The notes under the pieces: model-generated
What the model was told of the DNA's origin: nothing
What the model saw: the letters and a program-made list of their open reading frames with translations, nothing else
The model's database searches: none
Assembly: GCA_021826315.1 (NCBI GenBank)
Contig: JAKAZZ010000020.1
Coordinates: forward strand, 1 to 45,230
Direction: 5' to 3'
DNA: 45,230 nucleotides
Origin: Actinomycetes bacterium
GTDB lineage: Bacteria > Actinomycetota > Acidimicrobiia > Acidimicrobiales > Acidimicrobiaceae
In this document: piece by piece, positions 168-30,146 of the stretch
Layout of the letters: each line of letters starts with the position of its first letter
How positions within the stretch are numbered: the stretch's first letter is position 1
Translations under genes and position numbers: made by a program

Positions 168-259
168 AGGTAACTCAAAGCTTGTTAGTCGGTTGGAGCT
201 GAAGAAAGAATACCCGAGGTAGATCGCGTCGTTTGAAGCGGTGATGTCTAACCAATTTG

Positions 260-937
260 ATGCCGTTAGAATCAAAACACTATGGCGTTCTTGTACAGGT
301 CAATGGCTCAACTTTTTTTTATCGGAGACTTAATTTGACGGACTTTTCAATTCTCGAAGCCGGAATCGATAAGAGCGATGAGATGGTAGAAGTTAGGCGC
401 GCTATCTTCTCTAGCCTCCTCGATGGCAGAGTTGTGTCGATCGATGACCTGGTCGACTCCTTTGGTGAAGAGGTTATCCCTCGCATCGAGGAGCTCGTCG
501 ATGGGGGAGTGGCGATCCTCGACAATGAGCGAGCGTTGATCGTAGGAGCAGAGGGGATCTCGCTGGCCGAGACTGCTCATCGCCTCTCGATAGGCGATAT
601 TAGCCTCTATACGTGGTGTGCCTTCGACATAGTTGGTATCCCAGCGGCCCTAAAAGTCGACTCACGCGGTGTAACCAACTGTCCAACTTGCGGTAGAGAG
701 CTCCGTTTCGACGCGTCTAGAGGGAGCTTTGATCTCGGTAGTGAAGATGAACGAATAGTTGGTTTTTGGCCAAACTCCTCAGGGCCGGTTATCGCAAATT
801 TCTGCCCATCCGCTTTGATCTACTGTTCGATCGACCACCTCCGTGAACATAGGGGAGGATCTTTCGACGGCCAAGCACTTCCGATCGAAGATTTGGCTAG
901 TCGGGGTGAAGTTACGTGGAGGATCTTTTCTGCGTAG
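260..937 (+). CDS. MerB-like organomercurial (alkylmercury) lyase
   Basis: The 225-residue product matches the MerB layout: an N-terminal winged-helix-like part (about 30-95), the lead-in ETAHRLSI, then the catalytic core. Numbered from the TTG at 257, the MerB triad Cys96/Asp99/Cys159 appears as Cys121 and Asp124 in WCAFD and Cys183 in NFC. MerB cleaves the carbon-mercury bond of organomercurials by protonolysis and retains Hg(II) for reduction by MerA. Extra cysteines occur at 142, 145 and 190. No merA, merR or mercury transporter lies in the window, so it is an orphan. Start: ATG at 260 directly follows a possible TTG at 257; no convincing ribosome-binding site is seen. A related non-mercury function cannot be excluded, although all three catalytic residues are present. 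Confidence 0.8.
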   Translation: MPLESKHYGVLVQVNGSTFFYRRLNLTDFSILEAGIDKSDEMVEVRRAIFSSLLDGRVVSIDDLVDSFGEEVIPRIEELVDGGVAILDNERALIVGAEGISLAETAHRLSIGDISLYTWCAFDIVGIPAALKVDSRGVTNCPTCGRELRFDASRGSFDLGSEDERIVGFWPNSSGPVIANFCPSALIYCSIDHLREHRGGSFDGQALPIEDLASRGEVTWRIFSA

Positions 938-24063: not shown

Positions 24064-25530
24064 CTATAAAGGTGCATAAGAGCCGCTTCGTTCTCCGTAA
24101 CTTAGCGCACGTGCGATGGTAGTCAAAGTCCGTATATCGTAGCGAGTGAAACTTCTGCAGTGACCGTGGCGTAATTCAACGTAGCTTTCAAACGATGCGC
24201 TCGGCGAAGTTGGGTAAGGTGAAGTCGAAGTGTTCGAAGGATTTTCACTTCTATGTCCCCATGTGATCTCTTCGATCTCCTCGCGACGGAAGAGGATTAA
24301 ATTCCAAACCGCACCTTCAAAGACGAACACTACTCGCGCGAGGCCAACATAGTTTGAAAGCATTAGTGGGAAGTCTTTGGGGATTGCTTCGGATACGTGA
24401 GGCCTTTCTAAATGATTATCGATAGAAATTAGGCTGGCTACGTTTTCAATTGGGTCTACGAAGTTATGGCTAAATATCACTTCACCGTCTGTTGCAATGA
24501 GCGCTGAAGATTTAACTAGGCCACAAATCTCTGTGGCCGATTCGCTCAAGATAGTTTCTAGGGATCTTTCGTCGAGAACGTCTCTTCGAATACGCCTTTC
24601 GAGGCGACCTAAGCTGTCGAGGGCTTCGAACTGCCTTTTATGAAGATCGGTAAGAACTTTATTGTTGAAACTCCTTGACAGTTCCTTTGCTTTGAGCAGC
24701 TGGGATAGAGTCAGGTGTGTGTAGCTTTTGCTGTGCCCACTGACTAGACCCCAGAGTCTTCCGTCAACGGCAATTGGTATTGATAGTGATGTGCAAGTAC
24801 CCATCGCCTGCATGTATTCAATGTGATATGGAGATACGCTTCGGACGTCGCTGTAAGTTAAGTCAGGCGGCTTTTGATCAATTGAAATAACTGAGGCCGC
24901 TTCTCCGTCACGATCACGGATTGTCCTCCATGGGTTCAAAAGGTAGAGTCGTCGCGCTATCATCGGTACATCGCTGGCTGGATAGCGATGGTTCAGGTAC
25001 GACCCAATATCGGGGATGTGAGACTCGGCTACTACTTCCCCATCTTCGTTACCTGTAAAGCGATATACCATAATCCTATCTAGGTGGGTGAGCAAGCGAA
25101 TTTGCTCGACAAAATCCGTGTAATCGTCGAAATCTGGGGGTAATTTAGGTGAGGGTGACGGAATATCGTCACCCTCACCGTAAATCTCTAACACGAAGGT
25201 GGAGGAGTACTTAAGTAGTGCTCCTTCTATAAATACTCCCCTTTGAAATAGCGAAAAGTAGCGACGGTTGACGTTGTTCTCTTCAGATGAGGAGACAAAG
25301 TGCAGGTTCGGTAGAGAGGTGAATGTCGAGATTCTTGCCTCATTCGCAATCGCATCAAAGACATCTTTGTGAAGTAGTAGGGCGGGGTCAAAATTGGTTG
25401 AGATATCCGTTATGACGCCATCGTTATCAAATACCGCAAGCGAATTTCCACTCTGAACTTTTCCGCTAAGGTGAAGTCTTTCTTGCTCGCAACGCTCTAT
25501 GAAGTTCGTCTTAGCCAAATGCTGTACCAC
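24064..25530 (-). CDS. Stand-alone bacteriophytochrome photosensory module (PAS-GAF-PHY)
   Basis: The 488-residue protein contains the entire photosensory core and nothing after it. The PAS domain (about 10-115) has Cys14 in RCEQERLHL, the biliverdin-attachment position of bacteriophytochromes. The GAF domain (about 135-295) has DRIMVYRF (Tyr156), YPASDVP (Tyr183, Asp187), Arg230 and His236 in VRSVSPYHIEYM, and His266; the spacings match Y203/D207/R254/H260/H290 of Deinococcus BphP. The PHY domain (about 310-475) has a tongue with EITWGHR and PSASFESY, in which the conserved PRxSF Arg is Ser444. No kinase or other output domain follows. The GTG start overlaps by one base the TAG of the upstream CheB-CheR-GGDEF-EAL gene and has no ribosome-binding site, implying translational coupling and a partner acting in trans. 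No heme oxygenase is visible here. Confidence 0.9.
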   Translation of the reverse strand: MVQHLAKTNFIERCEQERLHLSGKVQSGNSLAVFDNDGVITDISTNFDPALLLHKDVFDAIANEARISTFTSLPNLHFVSSSEENNVNRRYFSLFQRGVFIEGALLKYSSTFVLEIYGEGDDIPSPSPKLPPDFDDYTDFVEQIRLLTHLDRIMVYRFTGNEDGEVVAESHIPDIGSYLNHRYPASDVPMIARRLYLLNPWRTIRDRDGEAASVISIDQKPPDLTYSDVRSVSPYHIEYMQAMGTCTSLSIPIAVDGRLWGLVSGHSKSYTHLTLSQLLKAKELSRSFNNKVLTDLHKRQFEALDSLGRLERRIRRDVLDERSLETILSESATEICGLVKSSALIATDGEVIFSHNFVDPIENVASLISIDNHLERPHVSEAIPKDFPLMLSNYVGLARVVFVFEGAVWNLILFRREEIEEITWGHRSENPSNTSTSPYPTSPSASFESYVELRHGHCRSFTRYDIRTLTTIARALSYGERSGSYAPL

Positions 25531-28500
25531 TAATTGGTCGTCTTGGCTATTAAATCTTCGAAGTCAATGGCCCTCATTGGCCTGTGGAAGAGATAGCCTT
25601 GGCCGACTTCGCATCCATTTTGCACTAGCCAATTGGCCTGCTCCTTCTCTTCGATCCCTTCTGCGATCATTTCAAAGTTGAGGGCTCGAGAGATCTCAAT
25701 TATTGCTCGCGTGATCGCTTCTCCGGTACCCTCTTGTCCTACGTCTGAGATGAAGCTTCGGTCGATCTTGATCTCAGTCGCGGGTATGGTTCGCAGGTAG
25801 GCTAGCGAAGAAAATCCGGTTCCAAAGTCGTCAATCGATAGGGCGATCCCTCTCGCCCTGAGTTGGTTGATGTTTGCGAGTGCGACTTCTGAGTCAGAGG
25901 CGAGTGCGCTCTCTGTGATTTCAAGTTTGATCGAATCTCGACCAAGTCCTCGATCTTCGATCTCCGATATGACCCAATCTGCAAAGTCCTTCTGGTAAAG
26001 GTTTTTCACAGAGATATTGACTGCGATCGGTGGCACTGATATTTTCAGCCTTTTCCACTCTGCAAGATCGTCTAATACTTGTCGAACTACAAAGTTGGTA
26101 ATCGCTTCGATCTGACCGGTTGTCTCTGCAATAGCGATCAATCGACCTGTGTCAACAGGTAGCGAACTCTCTGGAATATGTCGCAAGAGTGCTTCGGCGC
26201 CTCGTATTGCTCCACTAGATATCGCAACTTGCGGTTGATAGAAGACTTTGAATTCGTTGGAAGCTAGAGATCGTCGAATTGAATGTTCGATTCGGCTTCT
26301 ATCGTCAGCTTCAGCCTTTAGCTGAGGATGGAAAAATTGAACCTGGTTTCGCCCAAGTTTTTTGGCCTGATACATCGCCGCGTCGGCGGACTTAAGGAGA
26401 GTGTTTGAATCTTCCCCATCTTCTGGAAAAATCGCTACGCCAATTGAAGCACTTACATATTGTTCGGCGCCACTGATTACGTACTTTTCAGTAAGTAGTG
26501 ACAGTATTCTATTGCTGAGATGATCTAAATTTTCGTTTTCGGCGTCTTCGACGATGATGGTGAATTCATCACCACCGAAGCGGGTGACGAGGTCGGCTTC
26601 TCGAACAGAGTCTTTGATTCGGTTTGATACTTCGCGCAAGAGTTCATCACCGGCATCGTGACCTTGGCTATCGTTTATGAACTTGAAGTTGTCAAGGTCA
26701 ACGAAGAGAAGCGCTAGATTTCCGCCATCTCTTCTCTTTCGCGCAAGAGCCCGATTTAGGTACTCTTTGAAGAGAAGGCGATTTGGAAGTGACGTCAGCT
26801 CGTCATGAGTAGATAGGAATTCAGCCTTTTCACGGGCCAATACGTTGGACGAAATGTCGCTAAAGATTGCGAGAATGTGCTCTAATTTACCTTTTGAATC
26901 TTCTACAACAGAGAGAGATAGCCAAACAGGCGTCTTTGTGCCATCTGCAGCTAGTACTTTCTCTTCACCACTCCATCTCCCAAATTCTCTAAGAGCATTT
27001 GAGATCGCCTCTGCTTCATTACGCTTCGACGTAGTCTTGATGTCAAATACGAAGAATTTTTCACCAACTACGTCAGAGAGTGCTTGGCGAGTTACTTCAA
27101 GATATGCCGAGTTCACAGTTATAACTTCTCCCGTCGAAGAGAGAACTGCGATTGCTTCACCGGCGTTTTCAAATACCTTTGCTGCAAGGCGAAGTTCTTC
27201 TTCAGCTAGCCGCTTGGCGCTTTCGTCTAATAGCTGAACGCACACTGCGTTGACGCTTCCGTCTTCTTCGAAGAGTGGTAGGTGAGTGGCCGTTAGAAAT
27301 ATGCTTTGCGCATCTTCGGTATTGAACTCGTATTCGGCATTACGAGCGTTCCTCGTCCTAATTGCAATCAAGTCATTTTCCATGACCTGAGTAGCCATGG
27401 CATTGGGGAAGATGTCGAAGTCGCTAATCGTCTGTTCGACGGCCTCGACCCTGTGAAAGAATTGCTGGAATCGGCGGTTGGCGTAGAGGTAGCGACCTTG
27501 AATGTCCTTTATGACAAACATGATGGTTGTATTCTCCATCAGAGATTCAACCATCAACTCGGCGCTGCGGCGCTTCAATTGTGCCGTAACCAGTTCGCTC
27601 GTATCGATTAACGTGAGTATCGTCCCAGCGAAGAGTCCGTATTCGTCAAGGTATGGCGTAGCGTTTGCTTGCCAGGTTATGTTTTCTTCTACTATTAGGT
27701 CTGAAACGCTGTCTCCGAGTTCGCGCGCTTCATTGATAAGCGAGTGAAGCTTGAGCATCTTTTTGGGAAGTCTAAGTAGGTCTATCTTTGTCCCGACCAT
27801 AATCGTTCGAAGGTTGAAGAGGCGGGCAGCGGCAAAGTTGAAGCGTTTGAGGGCCATAGAGTTATCGAGGACGAGAAGTGGAAAGTCAAGGGCGTTGTAC
27901 AAGTTCTCATAGTCGTTTGTGACGCCGGTGAGTTGAGCAGTGCGAAGTGAAAGCTCGGTATTCAAAGAGATGAGCTCTTCGTTGGTTGCTTGGAGCTCTT
28001 CGTTTGCCGCCTCTAGCTCTTCGTTGGCGGCCTGCATCTCCTCGTTGGCTGCTTGAGCCTCTTCATTGAGAGCCTGCATCTCCTCGTTGGAGGTTGCCAA
28101 CTCTTCGATCATTGCTTGTAGATTTTCGCGCGTTACCGCAAGTTCGTCTTCGACGACCATATTCGATATCTCAGGTATTGCCCTACCTTCCTGAGTTTTG
28201 ATAACGCTGTCGAATTCGATTGTAACGAGGTAGTTGGTTGTATCGCTTTCAGCCAACGGTGTCACGCTTAGTCTGAAGGATTCGCCATCTATGGAGCGAC
28301 GCCTGCCGATTGACTCTTCTCGTTTTCGTGTAGAGCGACTGAGAAGCGTTTGAAAGTCTGCTTGAAGCTCATAACGCAAAATGTCAAATGCGTTCGAGGT
28401 ATTCATGCCGGTACGCACTTGAGTGAAATGACCGATGTCGCCAGCGCTATGAAGTAGGAGACCGTTCGAATCAACTAGCAGAATCGCGCTCTTTCTCGAG

Positions 28501-30146
28501 TCGAGATAGTTGTTCAGGAGCAGTTCCAGGCGCTTGGTCTCAATATTGCGTTTATCCCTTTGCGTTGACTTGGTCAACAGATGTCGCTGGAGCAAGTCAG
28601 TACTCGTGTGCGGCGCAATTCCAAGGGCAACTTTATTGAAGATGCGGTTTTTGCGATCGAGGGGTCTAAAGAGATGTTCTTGGGCTGATACAGACTCTGA
28701 ACGTCCAAGAAAGAGGATCCCCGCTGGATTTAGAGCGAAGTGGAATGCGGATAGTGCCGCAGATTGTAGATTTTGGTCTAGGTAGATGAGTACGTTTCGG
28801 CATGAGACTAGATCGAGGCGTAGGAATGGTGGATCTACCGCCAAGTTCTGCTTAGCGAAGATTATTGAGTCGCGGAGGTTCTTTGAGATCTCGTAGTTTC
28901 TTCCATTGAAGTTGAAGTACTTGAGTATCAAAGTGGGGTCAAGATTTTCGAGGGCCGCCGCCGGATAGGTGCCGCTCCGGGCAATTGAGAGGGCTCTCTC
29001 ATCGATATCTGTAGCAAATATCTGCAGCCGAATGTCGCTTAAGCGGGAGCCTAGCTTTTCCGTGAAGAGCATCGAAATGGTATATGCCTCTTCGCCACTC
29101 GCGCAGCCCGGAACCCAAATTCGAACTTCGCCACCAGGGGACTTTTGTTCAATGATTCGTTCGATAGCTACAGACAGGGCGTTGAAGGCCTCTGCGTCCC
29201 TAAAAAAGCTGGTAACGGAGATCAAAATGTCTTGGAAGAGCTCGCCCTTTTCATCATCGCTCTCAACAATTCGTTCCGCATATCCAGTAAGGTTAGTGAT
29301 CTTCGTAAGGCCCATGCGGTGCTCGATTCTGCGAAAGAGAGTGCCTCGTTTGTACCCGCGAAAGTCAACTCCGAACTTTTCATGCAGTTCTGCTAGGACC
29401 GTCTCGAGCGCAGTCTCACGCCCCTTGTCTTCGAATTCATCTAGCGAATAGATTCGCTCGGGAAGCGCCATCAGTAGTTGTGCGATCTCTTGAGGATCCA
29501 AGATCTTCATTGGAACGCCGGACTCTATTGCCGAAAGTGGCATTCCAGTGAACTTGGCACTCTCTGGTCGTTGCACGATACATTGACCACCACTATCGCT
29601 TATCGCCCTTAGGCCTGCGGTACCATCATTTCCAGTGCCCGACAATACAACGCCAATGGCTCGATCTGAGTACTCGTCGGCGAGTGCAACAAAGAAGGAG
29701 TTTACTGAGGGCTTTGGTGACGTCTGATTTGAAGCTTGCGTTAGTGCAATTCTCCCGTTGAGTATTGAAGCGTTGTTATTGGGAGGAATTATCAATATCT
29801 TGCCAGCCGCGATCTGGTCGCCTGATTTGGCCTCTTCAACCGGTATTGCAGTCTCTCTTGAGAGTATTTCAGCCATCATCGATCGATAGCTTGGTGATAG
29901 ATGTTGAAGTATGACTATAGCCATCTTGCTGGTCATCTCTAAACCTGTTAGGAGTTGCGAGAGTGCCTCTAACCCGCCGGCTGAAGAGCCGATTGCAACA
30001 ACGTAGTATCCTCTTGGGACGGGAGACGAATCGCCAAATGGGTCGACCGCTGATTCAGGGTTGTGATTATCAGCTATTTGCTCTCGAAGGTCAATCGCGA
30101 TACCGTCAAAACCTGAGCCGTCTTCTTTAGCTACTTGGTCCGTCAC
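25530..30146 (-). CDS. CheB-CheR-coiled-coil-PAS-GGDEF-EAL fusion protein
   Basis: A 1,538-residue signalling protein. CheB methylesterase domain (about 45-230): IGSSAGG with Ser55, His82 in QHLSP and Asp174 in GTGNDG, so the triad is intact; no receiver precedes it. CheR methyltransferase (about 240-505): VPGCASGEEAY at 345-355 and ATDIDE bind S-adenosylmethionine. A PAS-like region (545-650) is followed by a heptad coiled coil (about 665-740) with repeated NEEMQA/NEELEA. Three PAS-like domains follow (about 745-850, 865-975, 985-1100). GGDEF domain: RFGGDEF at 1189-1195, with inhibitory site READ at 1182-1185. EAL domain: Glu1318 in GAEALLR and IDDFGTG at 1438-1444. Both c-di-GMP synthesis and hydrolysis look possible. 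The start is GTG at 30146 with a weak ribosome-binding site. It is the first gene of a two-gene unit with the phytochrome. Confidence 0.93.
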   Translation of the reverse strand: MTDQVAKEDGSGFDGIAIDLREQIADNHNPESAVDPFGDSSPVPRGYYVVAIGSSAGGLEALSQLLTGLEMTSKMAIVILQHLSPSYRSMMAEILSRETAIPVEEAKSGDQIAAGKILIIPPNNNASILNGRIALTQASNQTSPKPSVNSFFVALADEYSDRAIGVVLSGTGNDGTAGLRAISDSGGQCIVQRPESAKFTGMPLSAIESGVPMKILDPQEIAQLLMALPERIYSLDEFEDKGRETALETVLAELHEKFGVDFRGYKRGTLFRRIEHRMGLTKITNLTGYAERIVESDDEKGELFQDILISVTSFFRDAEAFNALSVAIERIIEQKSPGGEVRIWVPGCASGEEAYTISMLFTEKLGSRLSDIRLQIFATDIDERALSIARSGTYPAAALENLDPTLILKYFNFNGRNYEISKNLRDSIIFAKQNLAVDPPFLRLDLVSCRNVLIYLDQNLQSAALSAFHFALNPAGILFLGRSESVSAQEHLFRPLDRKNRIFNKVALGIAPHTSTDLLQRHLLTKSTQRDKRNIETKRLELLLNNYLDSRKSAILLVDSNGLLLHSAGDIGHFTQVRTGMNTSNAFDILRYELQADFQTLLSRSTRKREESIGRRRSIDGESFRLSVTPLAESDTTNYLVTIEFDSVIKTQEGRAIPEISNMVVEDELAVTRENLQAMIEELATSNEEMQALNEEAQAANEEMQAANEELEAANEELQATNEELISLNTELSLRTAQLTGVTNDYENLYNALDFPLLVLDNSMALKRFNFAAARLFNLRTIMVGTKIDLLRLPKKMLKLHSLINEARELGDSVSDLIVEENITWQANATPYLDEYGLFAGTILTLIDTSELVTAQLKRRSAELMVESLMENTTIMFVIKDIQGRYLYANRRFQQFFHRVEAVEQTISDFDIFPNAMATQVMENDLIAIRTRNARNAEYEFNTEDAQSIFLTATHLPLFEEDGSVNAVCVQLLDESAKRLAEEELRLAAKVFENAGEAIAVLSSTGEVITVNSAYLEVTRQALSDVVGEKFFVFDIKTTSKRNEAEAISNALREFGRWSGEEKVLAADGTKTPVWLSLSVVEDSKGKLEHILAIFSDISSNVLAREKAEFLSTHDELTSLPNRLLFKEYLNRALARKRRDGGNLALLFVDLDNFKFINDSQGHDAGDELLREVSNRIKDSVREADLVTRFGGDEFTIIVEDAENENLDHLSNRILSLLTEKYVISGAEQYVSASIGVAIFPEDGEDSNTLLKSADAAMYQAKKLGRNQVQFFHPQLKAEADDRSRIEHSIRRSLASNEFKVFYQPQVAISSGAIRGAEALLRHIPESSLPVDTGRLIAIAETTGQIEAITNFVVRQVLDDLAEWKRLKISVPPIAVNISVKNLYQKDFADWVISEIEDRGLGRDSIKLEITESALASDSEVALANINQLRARGIALSIDDFGTGFSSLAYLRTIPATEIKIDRSFISDVGQEGTGEAITRAIIEISRALNFEMIAEGIEEKEQANWLVQNGCEVGQGYLFHRPMRAIDFEDLIAKTTN

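Follow-up and report, generated by a model that had tools for sequence, protein, structure and literature searches.

The window is a stretch of 45,230 nucleotides from an actinobacterium of the family Acidimicrobiaceae (contig JAKAZZ010000020.1, assembly GCA_021826315.1). Two genes that lie end to end on its minus strand are examined here as a candidate light input to cyclic di-GMP (c-di-GMP) signalling. One encodes a bacteriophytochrome photosensory module without an output domain (24064–25530, 488 aa, GTG start), identified from its open reading frame (ORF), Pfam matches to GAF and PHY, and a match in the Protein Data Bank (PDB). The gene that precedes it encodes a partner of 1538 aa, arranged as CheB-CheR-coil-PAS-PAS-PAS-GGDEF-EAL (25530–30146, GTG start), identified from its ORF, from Pfam and from orthologues that are 87% identical over the full length. 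Both ORFs were found on the strand and at the positions assigned to them in a preliminary description made from the sequence alone. All features below are on the minus strand unless marked otherwise.

The phytochrome

Matches to the GAF domain (aa 140–273, 24712–25113, E 4.8e-9) and the PHY domain (aa 310–476, 24103–24603, E 5.3e-10) are both over the Pfam cut-off. An N-terminal PAS_2-like region (aa 14–115, 25186–25491), which contains the presumed bilin-binding Cys14, spans nearly the full profile at an E-value of 0.042, below the cut-off. The protein ends 12 residues beyond the PHY match and has no output domain in Pfam, as the preliminary description had said of a separate photosensory protein. 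Compared with PDB chains by phmmer, it matched 101 distinct sequences at E ≤0.001; the best was a bacteriophytochrome (6.3e-38), and most of the best 60 of the 101 bear that name. Against the NCBIfam equivalog for bacteriophytochrome BphP (NF041576) it scored 114.3 bits over part of the profile, below the curated cut-off of 1040.

Aligned with PaBphP (3c2w, which we take to be the Pseudomonas aeruginosa phytochrome), the protein agrees at twelve chromophore-pocket positions: Cys14, Tyr156, Tyr183, Asp187, Arg202, Arg230, Ser233, His236, Tyr239, Ser248, Ser250 and His266. All twelve are identical in the three orthologues described below, including Cys14, which aligns with the PaBphP cysteine, and the GAF histidines H236 and H266; the GAF domain also carries the motif PASDVP. 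In the tongue of the PHY domain, aligned in the same way, the W-G and S-F residues are kept in all three species, while the arginine position of PRxSF is S, H and R. The roles of these pocket residues, and of the residues checked in the partner, are presumably those known from characterised proteins. An AlphaFold2 model of the phytochrome built on a three-row alignment was too weak to use for a fold search (mean pLDDT 38.0).

The partner

Pfam gives the order CheB, CheR_N, CheR, PAS_10, PAS_4, PAS, GGDEF, EAL, and the catalytic domains are matched over nearly their full length. The CheB methylesterase domain (aa 50–225, 29472–29999, E 3.1e-54) is followed by CheR_N and the CheR methyltransferase domain (aa 247–498, 28653–29408, E 1.5e-10 and 2.2e-49), three PAS domains (aa 747–848, 872–974 and 991–1098, 26853–27908), a GGDEF domain with an RxxD inhibition-site motif (aa 1113–1268, 26343–26810, E 7.6e-49) and an EAL domain (aa 1289–1523, 25578–26282, E 3.4e-64). 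The three species are identical at CheB S55, H82 and D174, at six CheR positions, at RxxD and GGDEF, and at the EAL positions E1318, A1319, L1320, N1377, E1409, D1439, D1440, K1460, E1496 and Q1516; the residue preceding GGDEF is F, L and F. Complete CheB and CheR domains and intact GGDEF and EAL motifs had been proposed earlier, and these checks bear both out. The four PAS-like domains proposed with them are reduced to three by Pfam, since the possible fourth (aa 483–659) had no match at E-values up to 10, within HMMER's filters. With both active-site motifs intact, the partner is potentially bifunctional. An AlphaFold2 model of aa 505–1112, also from a three-row alignment, was likewise too weak for that use (mean pLDDT 41.8).

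The junction between the genes

At the junction (TAGTG, 25528–25532) the G that ends the partner's TAG stop is also the first base of the phytochrome's GTG. In relative G011 the phytochrome ATG lies 9 nt past the partner stop, in the partner's own frame. In relative G008 the phytochrome frame is open and starts ahead of the partner stop, but from the stop before it up to the conserved Cys (L003 1462–1705) there is no in-frame ATG, GTG or TTG; a start at ATA or ATT would be needed, or the assembly is wrong there. Because the junction differs in G011 and G008, the overlap carries no special meaning, though the two frames adjoin in every carrier. The overlap reported in the preliminary description is thus present in the window, but the case it made for fixed stoichiometry and docking is weakened, as the arrangement is not conserved.

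A programmed frameshift or read-through that would join the genes was rejected, because the relation of the frames varies: the phytochrome lies in -1 to the partner in the window and in G008, but shares the partner's frame in G011. Recent horizontal gain was also considered, and composition gives no sign of it (GC 0.468 for the phytochrome, 0.486 for the partner and 0.487 for the window). Scans for promoters and terminators found sites no more numerous than in shuffled sequence.

Conservation and selection within the family

The family search covered 42 genomes, including 12 of the genus. The phytochrome was found in the window genome, G008 and G011 only, leaving 39 of the 42 without a match; the full-length partner showed the same distribution. 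The pair therefore occurs together in 3 of the 12 genus genomes, with neither gene found in the other 9, and nowhere else among the 42; this is a qualified answer to the earlier question of conservation, the pair being kept in three species and the phytochrome unmatched in most of the family. The partner search used E-values up to 1e-60, and in many genomes 13 of the first-look candidates were scored; elsewhere in the family the partner matches listed were to the PAS-GGDEF-EAL half only. The phytochrome was found in none of the 20 genomes more than 90% complete, and the three carriers are 86–90% complete. A contig scan with two peptide patterns drawn from the alignment again picked out these two relatives, G008 and G011. 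The two genes are adjacent in all three carriers.

Comparison of the three species shows saturation at synonymous sites in both genes (pS 0.78–0.87). The non-synonymous rate pN is 0.22–0.26 for the phytochrome, 0.08–0.10 for the partner and 0.08–0.15 for three neighbouring genes. Judged from these rates, both genes are held by purifying selection, the sensor more loosely. Within the partner, identity to the window copy is 98% in the coiled coil (aa 656–742), 96–98% in the first PAS domain, 92–95% in CheR, 93–95% in GGDEF and 81–85% in EAL; within the phytochrome it is 72–78% in the GAF region and 55–56% at the N-terminus.

The upstream alcohol dehydrogenase and dGTPase genes are also present in four relatives without the pair (G003, G005, G009 and G013), three of which have TlyA as well. 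A fifth, G004, has the upstream alcohol dehydrogenase, with an unrelated-looking 715-aa GGDEF-EAL frame nearby. The distribution reflects either gain in the three genomes or loss elsewhere. As the neighbouring genes are syntenic too in the three genomes, the two could be chance neighbours in one lineage with no functional link. This is extremely improbable: both genes are still open despite saturated synonymous sites, and the pair stays together although the interval upstream of the partner differs, with two small ORFs, membrane-like by eye, between alcohol dehydrogenase and partner in G008 (L005 3710–4788) that are absent in the window. By these sequence comparisons the pair is genuine and of long standing in a single lineage.

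Homologues in the class, the phylum and on plasmids

In the class, 395 genomes were searched with the phytochrome model, which gave three matches besides that of the window, in open frames of 906, 1312 and 841 aa; judged by eye, the C-terminus is SpoIIE/PP2C-like in two of them and kinase-like in the third. A search of 396 genomes of the phylum gave nine phytochrome matches, including those of the window and of G043, and five of the other seven loci were fetched. Two of these, from other actinobacteria (L112 and L114), combine a phytochrome-type GAF with a GGDEF domain in a single open frame, of 666 and 738 aa. The PHY part of these fused frames was unmatched by the single-sequence query.

The N-terminal 1112 aa of the partner had matches in 34 genomes of the phylum, the window's own included, and nine others were fetched. 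In these nine CheB-CheR-PAS stretches, phmmer searches with the window's domains placed neither GGDEF nor EAL in the CheB-CheR-PAS frame and gave no phytochrome match; three stretches (L082, L083 and L086) end at contig ends, and in L087 CheB is in a frame apart from CheR-PAS. In two others (L081 from G509 and L084 from G519) a convergent EAL frame of about 1100 aa adjoins the CheB-CheR-PAS gene. A 1796-aa "CheB" frame in G119 was set aside as a GC-rich open frame around a seemingly ordinary REC-CheB.

Of 72,556 plasmid records, 1458 matched the partner at E ≤1e-50. Coverage of the partner reached 80% or more at one place, in WP_140906637.1 of Shewanella sp. LC6, which is 33.9% identical over 97% and has matches in the order CheB, CheR, coil-PAS, GGDEF, EAL. 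Its gene (L066 12824–15233) is flanked by transposase genes and has a PAS-chemoreceptor gene close by, separated from it by a single IS5 transposase gene. The annotation shows no phytochrome within 8 kb of it, so the partner architecture can occur without one. Conversely, in 10 of the 123 plasmid records with phytochrome matches, none had an annotated CheB or CheR within 5–8 kb, in a gene table that is incomplete.

The glutamate ladder

The coiled coil that joins the CheR part of the partner to its PAS domains carries a ladder of seven Glu-Glu pairs at an exact spacing of 7 (aa 681–724, 27975–28106). The region is predicted to be helical with a pLDDT of 74–83, the sole part above 70 in otherwise weak models. 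The methyl-accepting glutamates of chemoreceptors are likewise seven apart. A ladder of 5–9 pairs was found in all 13 CheB-CheR-PAS proteins compared, whatever their output, at a spacing of 7 (multiples of 7 in four). The 13 are the three orthologues, the Shewanella protein and the nine actinobacterial proteins, L087 being represented by its CheR-PAS frame (window, L066, L080–L088).

The pattern EExxA[STA] fits four of the pairs in the window partner, and the stricter ten-residue pattern for methyl-accepting chemotaxis proteins (MCP) has no match there. None of 2000 shuffles reached four fits, which is weak evidence because any heptad repeat inflates the test. The ladder is only suggestive: it gives a reason to test self-methylation and nothing beyond that, and it occurs throughout the family. 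On a fuller version of this idea the partner would be a self-adapting enzyme whose own CheR and CheB methylate and demethylate the ladder, so that light sensed by the separate phytochrome would change c-di-GMP only transiently; this would place a receptor-like memory in one c-di-GMP enzyme, and self-methylation would be general to CheB-CheR-PAS hybrids, whatever their output. Such a scheme is quite unlikely.

Chemotaxis genes and biliverdin supply in the host genome

The assembly of the window genome is 2.82 Mb in 110 contigs, 89.9% complete. The earlier statement that no chemoreceptor or flagellar gene accompanies the pair holds within the window, where none was seen in the ORF list or in a Pfam scan of ten further window ORFs. 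It does not extend to the genome, which has 11 MCP-domain matches, two flagellin matches (both on contig C88) and, on the same contig, a CheW-CheY-CheB-CheR cluster, in which CheB was recognised by PF01339 and the others named by eye. One of the further ORFs in the window (257–937, plus strand) has an alkylmercury lyase (MerB) domain (8.4e-13).

These genes raise the question of whether the light signal passes mainly through CheB and CheR to chemoreceptors and tunes chemotaxis, with c-di-GMP as a side output. The three carriers have 11, 9 and 10 MCP matches and all have flagellin matches, the CheB and CheR motifs of the partner are kept, and the Shewanella homologue is near an annotated PAS-chemoreceptor gene. 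However, a separate canonical CheB and CheR are present in the genome, and GGDEF is as well conserved as CheR; this route is distinctly unlikely.

A phytochrome of this kind would need biliverdin. In a first test, all 12 genomes searched, the three carriers included, were without a match to the heme oxygenase family PF01126 at E ≤0.01. In a second test at E up to 1, none of the three pair carriers had a match, against 8 of the 10 other phytochrome carriers, among which the match in G727 was weak (2.9e-4). The two others without a match, G043 (L034; single contig, 99% complete) and G310 (L035), belong to the same order. Since G043 also has a phytochrome without a match, the PF01126 test may miss another heme-cleaving family; the biliverdin source must be an unrecognised enzyme, a stretch missing from the assembly, or outside the cell. 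The 0-of-3 against 8-of-10 result would also fit a phytochrome that is no light switch and, having no biliverdin source of its own, senses scavenged bilin or acts as a bilin-free scaffold. That is very unlikely, given the G043 case and the invariance of the pocket residues while the rest of the phytochrome drifts.

Comparison with known systems

The output of BphG is GGDEF-EAL; BphG, L112 and L114 are each one chain, whereas the window has two genes. In BphG of Rhodobacter sphaeroides a phytochrome-type photosensory part is linked to c-di-GMP enzymes (PMC8846402). Split pairs are described in the same source. PapB-PapA of Rhodopseudomonas palustris consists of a BLUF-only protein and a separate EAL protein; like the window pair, it joins a photoreceptor without output to a separate c-di-GMP enzyme, and in the window the sensor is encoded beside the enzyme. 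Unlike PapB-PapA, with its blue-light flavin sensor and solo EAL, the window has a phytochrome, GGDEF plus EAL, and CheB/CheR. In SwH-NOX/SwDGC of Shewanella woodyi a stand-alone sensor is bound to a GGDEF-EAL partner and shifts its cyclase/phosphodiesterase balance (PMC8846402). The window likewise encodes a separate sensor and a GGDEF-EAL partner; SwH-NOX senses NO, whereas the window sensor is of a light-sensing type, and that description of SwDGC mentions no CheB/CheR.

RpBphP1 acts by light-dependent binding of a separate protein, RpPpsR2 (PMC6899989), but RpPpsR2 represses genes, and RpBphP1 retains PAS9 and HOS domains at its C-terminus. One phytochrome is described as carrying GGDEF, EAL and MCP domains (PMC4053972). 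Cenrod_2641 of Candidatus Symbiobacter mobilis, a photoactive bacteriophytochrome without an output domain, resembles the window protein in that respect, but its operon partner is a heme oxygenase, not a c-di-GMP enzyme (PMC4053972). Ppr, a phytochrome-containing photoreceptor, interacts with CheW in a report that also treats Cph2 (PMC5812497).

Cenrod_2641, which shows that output-less phytochromes adjoin other genes, the Ppr-CheW interaction and the Shewanella homologue would all suit two proteins that are merely co-transcribed, the phytochrome addressing for example a kinase or CheW while the partner answers its own PAS signals. We regard this as rather unlikely, because the pair is present or absent jointly in the genus and no other signalling gene in the ORF list adjoins the phytochrome in the window.

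Within the CheB-CheR-PAS hybrids, a grouping of our own, the partner shares the CheB-CheR-ladder-PAS plan, and the Shewanella protein also has GGDEF-EAL; its gene and the nine actinobacterial stretches differ from the window in the respects given above. Among the matches listed in open-licence literature, titles and abstract openings gave no description of a phytochrome paired with a CheB-CheR-GGDEF-EAL protein. The ingredients are individually known, as output-less phytochromes (PMC4053972) and split pairs of sensor and c-di-GMP enzyme (PMC8846402), and within that literature the combination is new.

A possible action of the phytochrome in trans

There is about an even chance that the output-less red/far-red phytochrome acts in trans on the neighbouring GGDEF-EAL partner, giving a two-gene light input to c-di-GMP. 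Genes, intact motifs, joint conservation in three genomes, and flagellar and chemotaxis genes were observed directly; from them we infer chromophore binding, contact, the direction of any light effect and methylation. The phytochrome would bind bilin at Cys14 and switch with light. Because it has no output domain, it would signal by contact with the product of the preceding gene, the likeliest site being the coiled coil or the PAS region. Contact would shift the partner's balance between synthesis by GGDEF and breakdown by EAL, for which PapB-PapA and the H-NOX/cyclase pair serve as models. Reversible methylation by CheB and CheR, on chemoreceptors or on the partner's own ladder, may then reset sensitivity. 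The lack of an output domain, the conserved pocket and tongue residues, the joint presence, adjacency and purifying selection, the L112 and L114 fusions and the known split pairs all point towards action in trans.

Several observations weigh against it. The phytochrome diverges faster than the partner (62–67% against 87% identity to the window copy), and co-occurrence in three congeneric genomes may represent a single event. The one-nucleotide overlap is confined to the window genome, the Shewanella plasmid homologue has no phytochrome annotated nearby, and PF01126 is unmatched in all three carriers. For the methylation step, EExxA[STA] is absent from 4 of the 13 ladder proteins, and the Shewanella protein has neither pattern. 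Because the genome has its own chemoreceptors and separate CheB and CheR, the fused CheB/CheR could act on those receptors rather than on the partner, which weakens the self-directed reading.

If the phytochrome drives the partner in trans, the pair would extend the split arrangement of the BLUF and H-NOX systems to red/far-red light, and it could be a candidate for a two-part near-infrared tool for c-di-GMP. If CheB and CheR modify their own coiled coil, this would offer a testable mechanism for a hybrid family that occurs on many plasmids and in many genomes. For the organism itself, red-light sensing would sit in an actinobacterium that has flagellar genes and in which PF01126 recognises no heme oxygenase.

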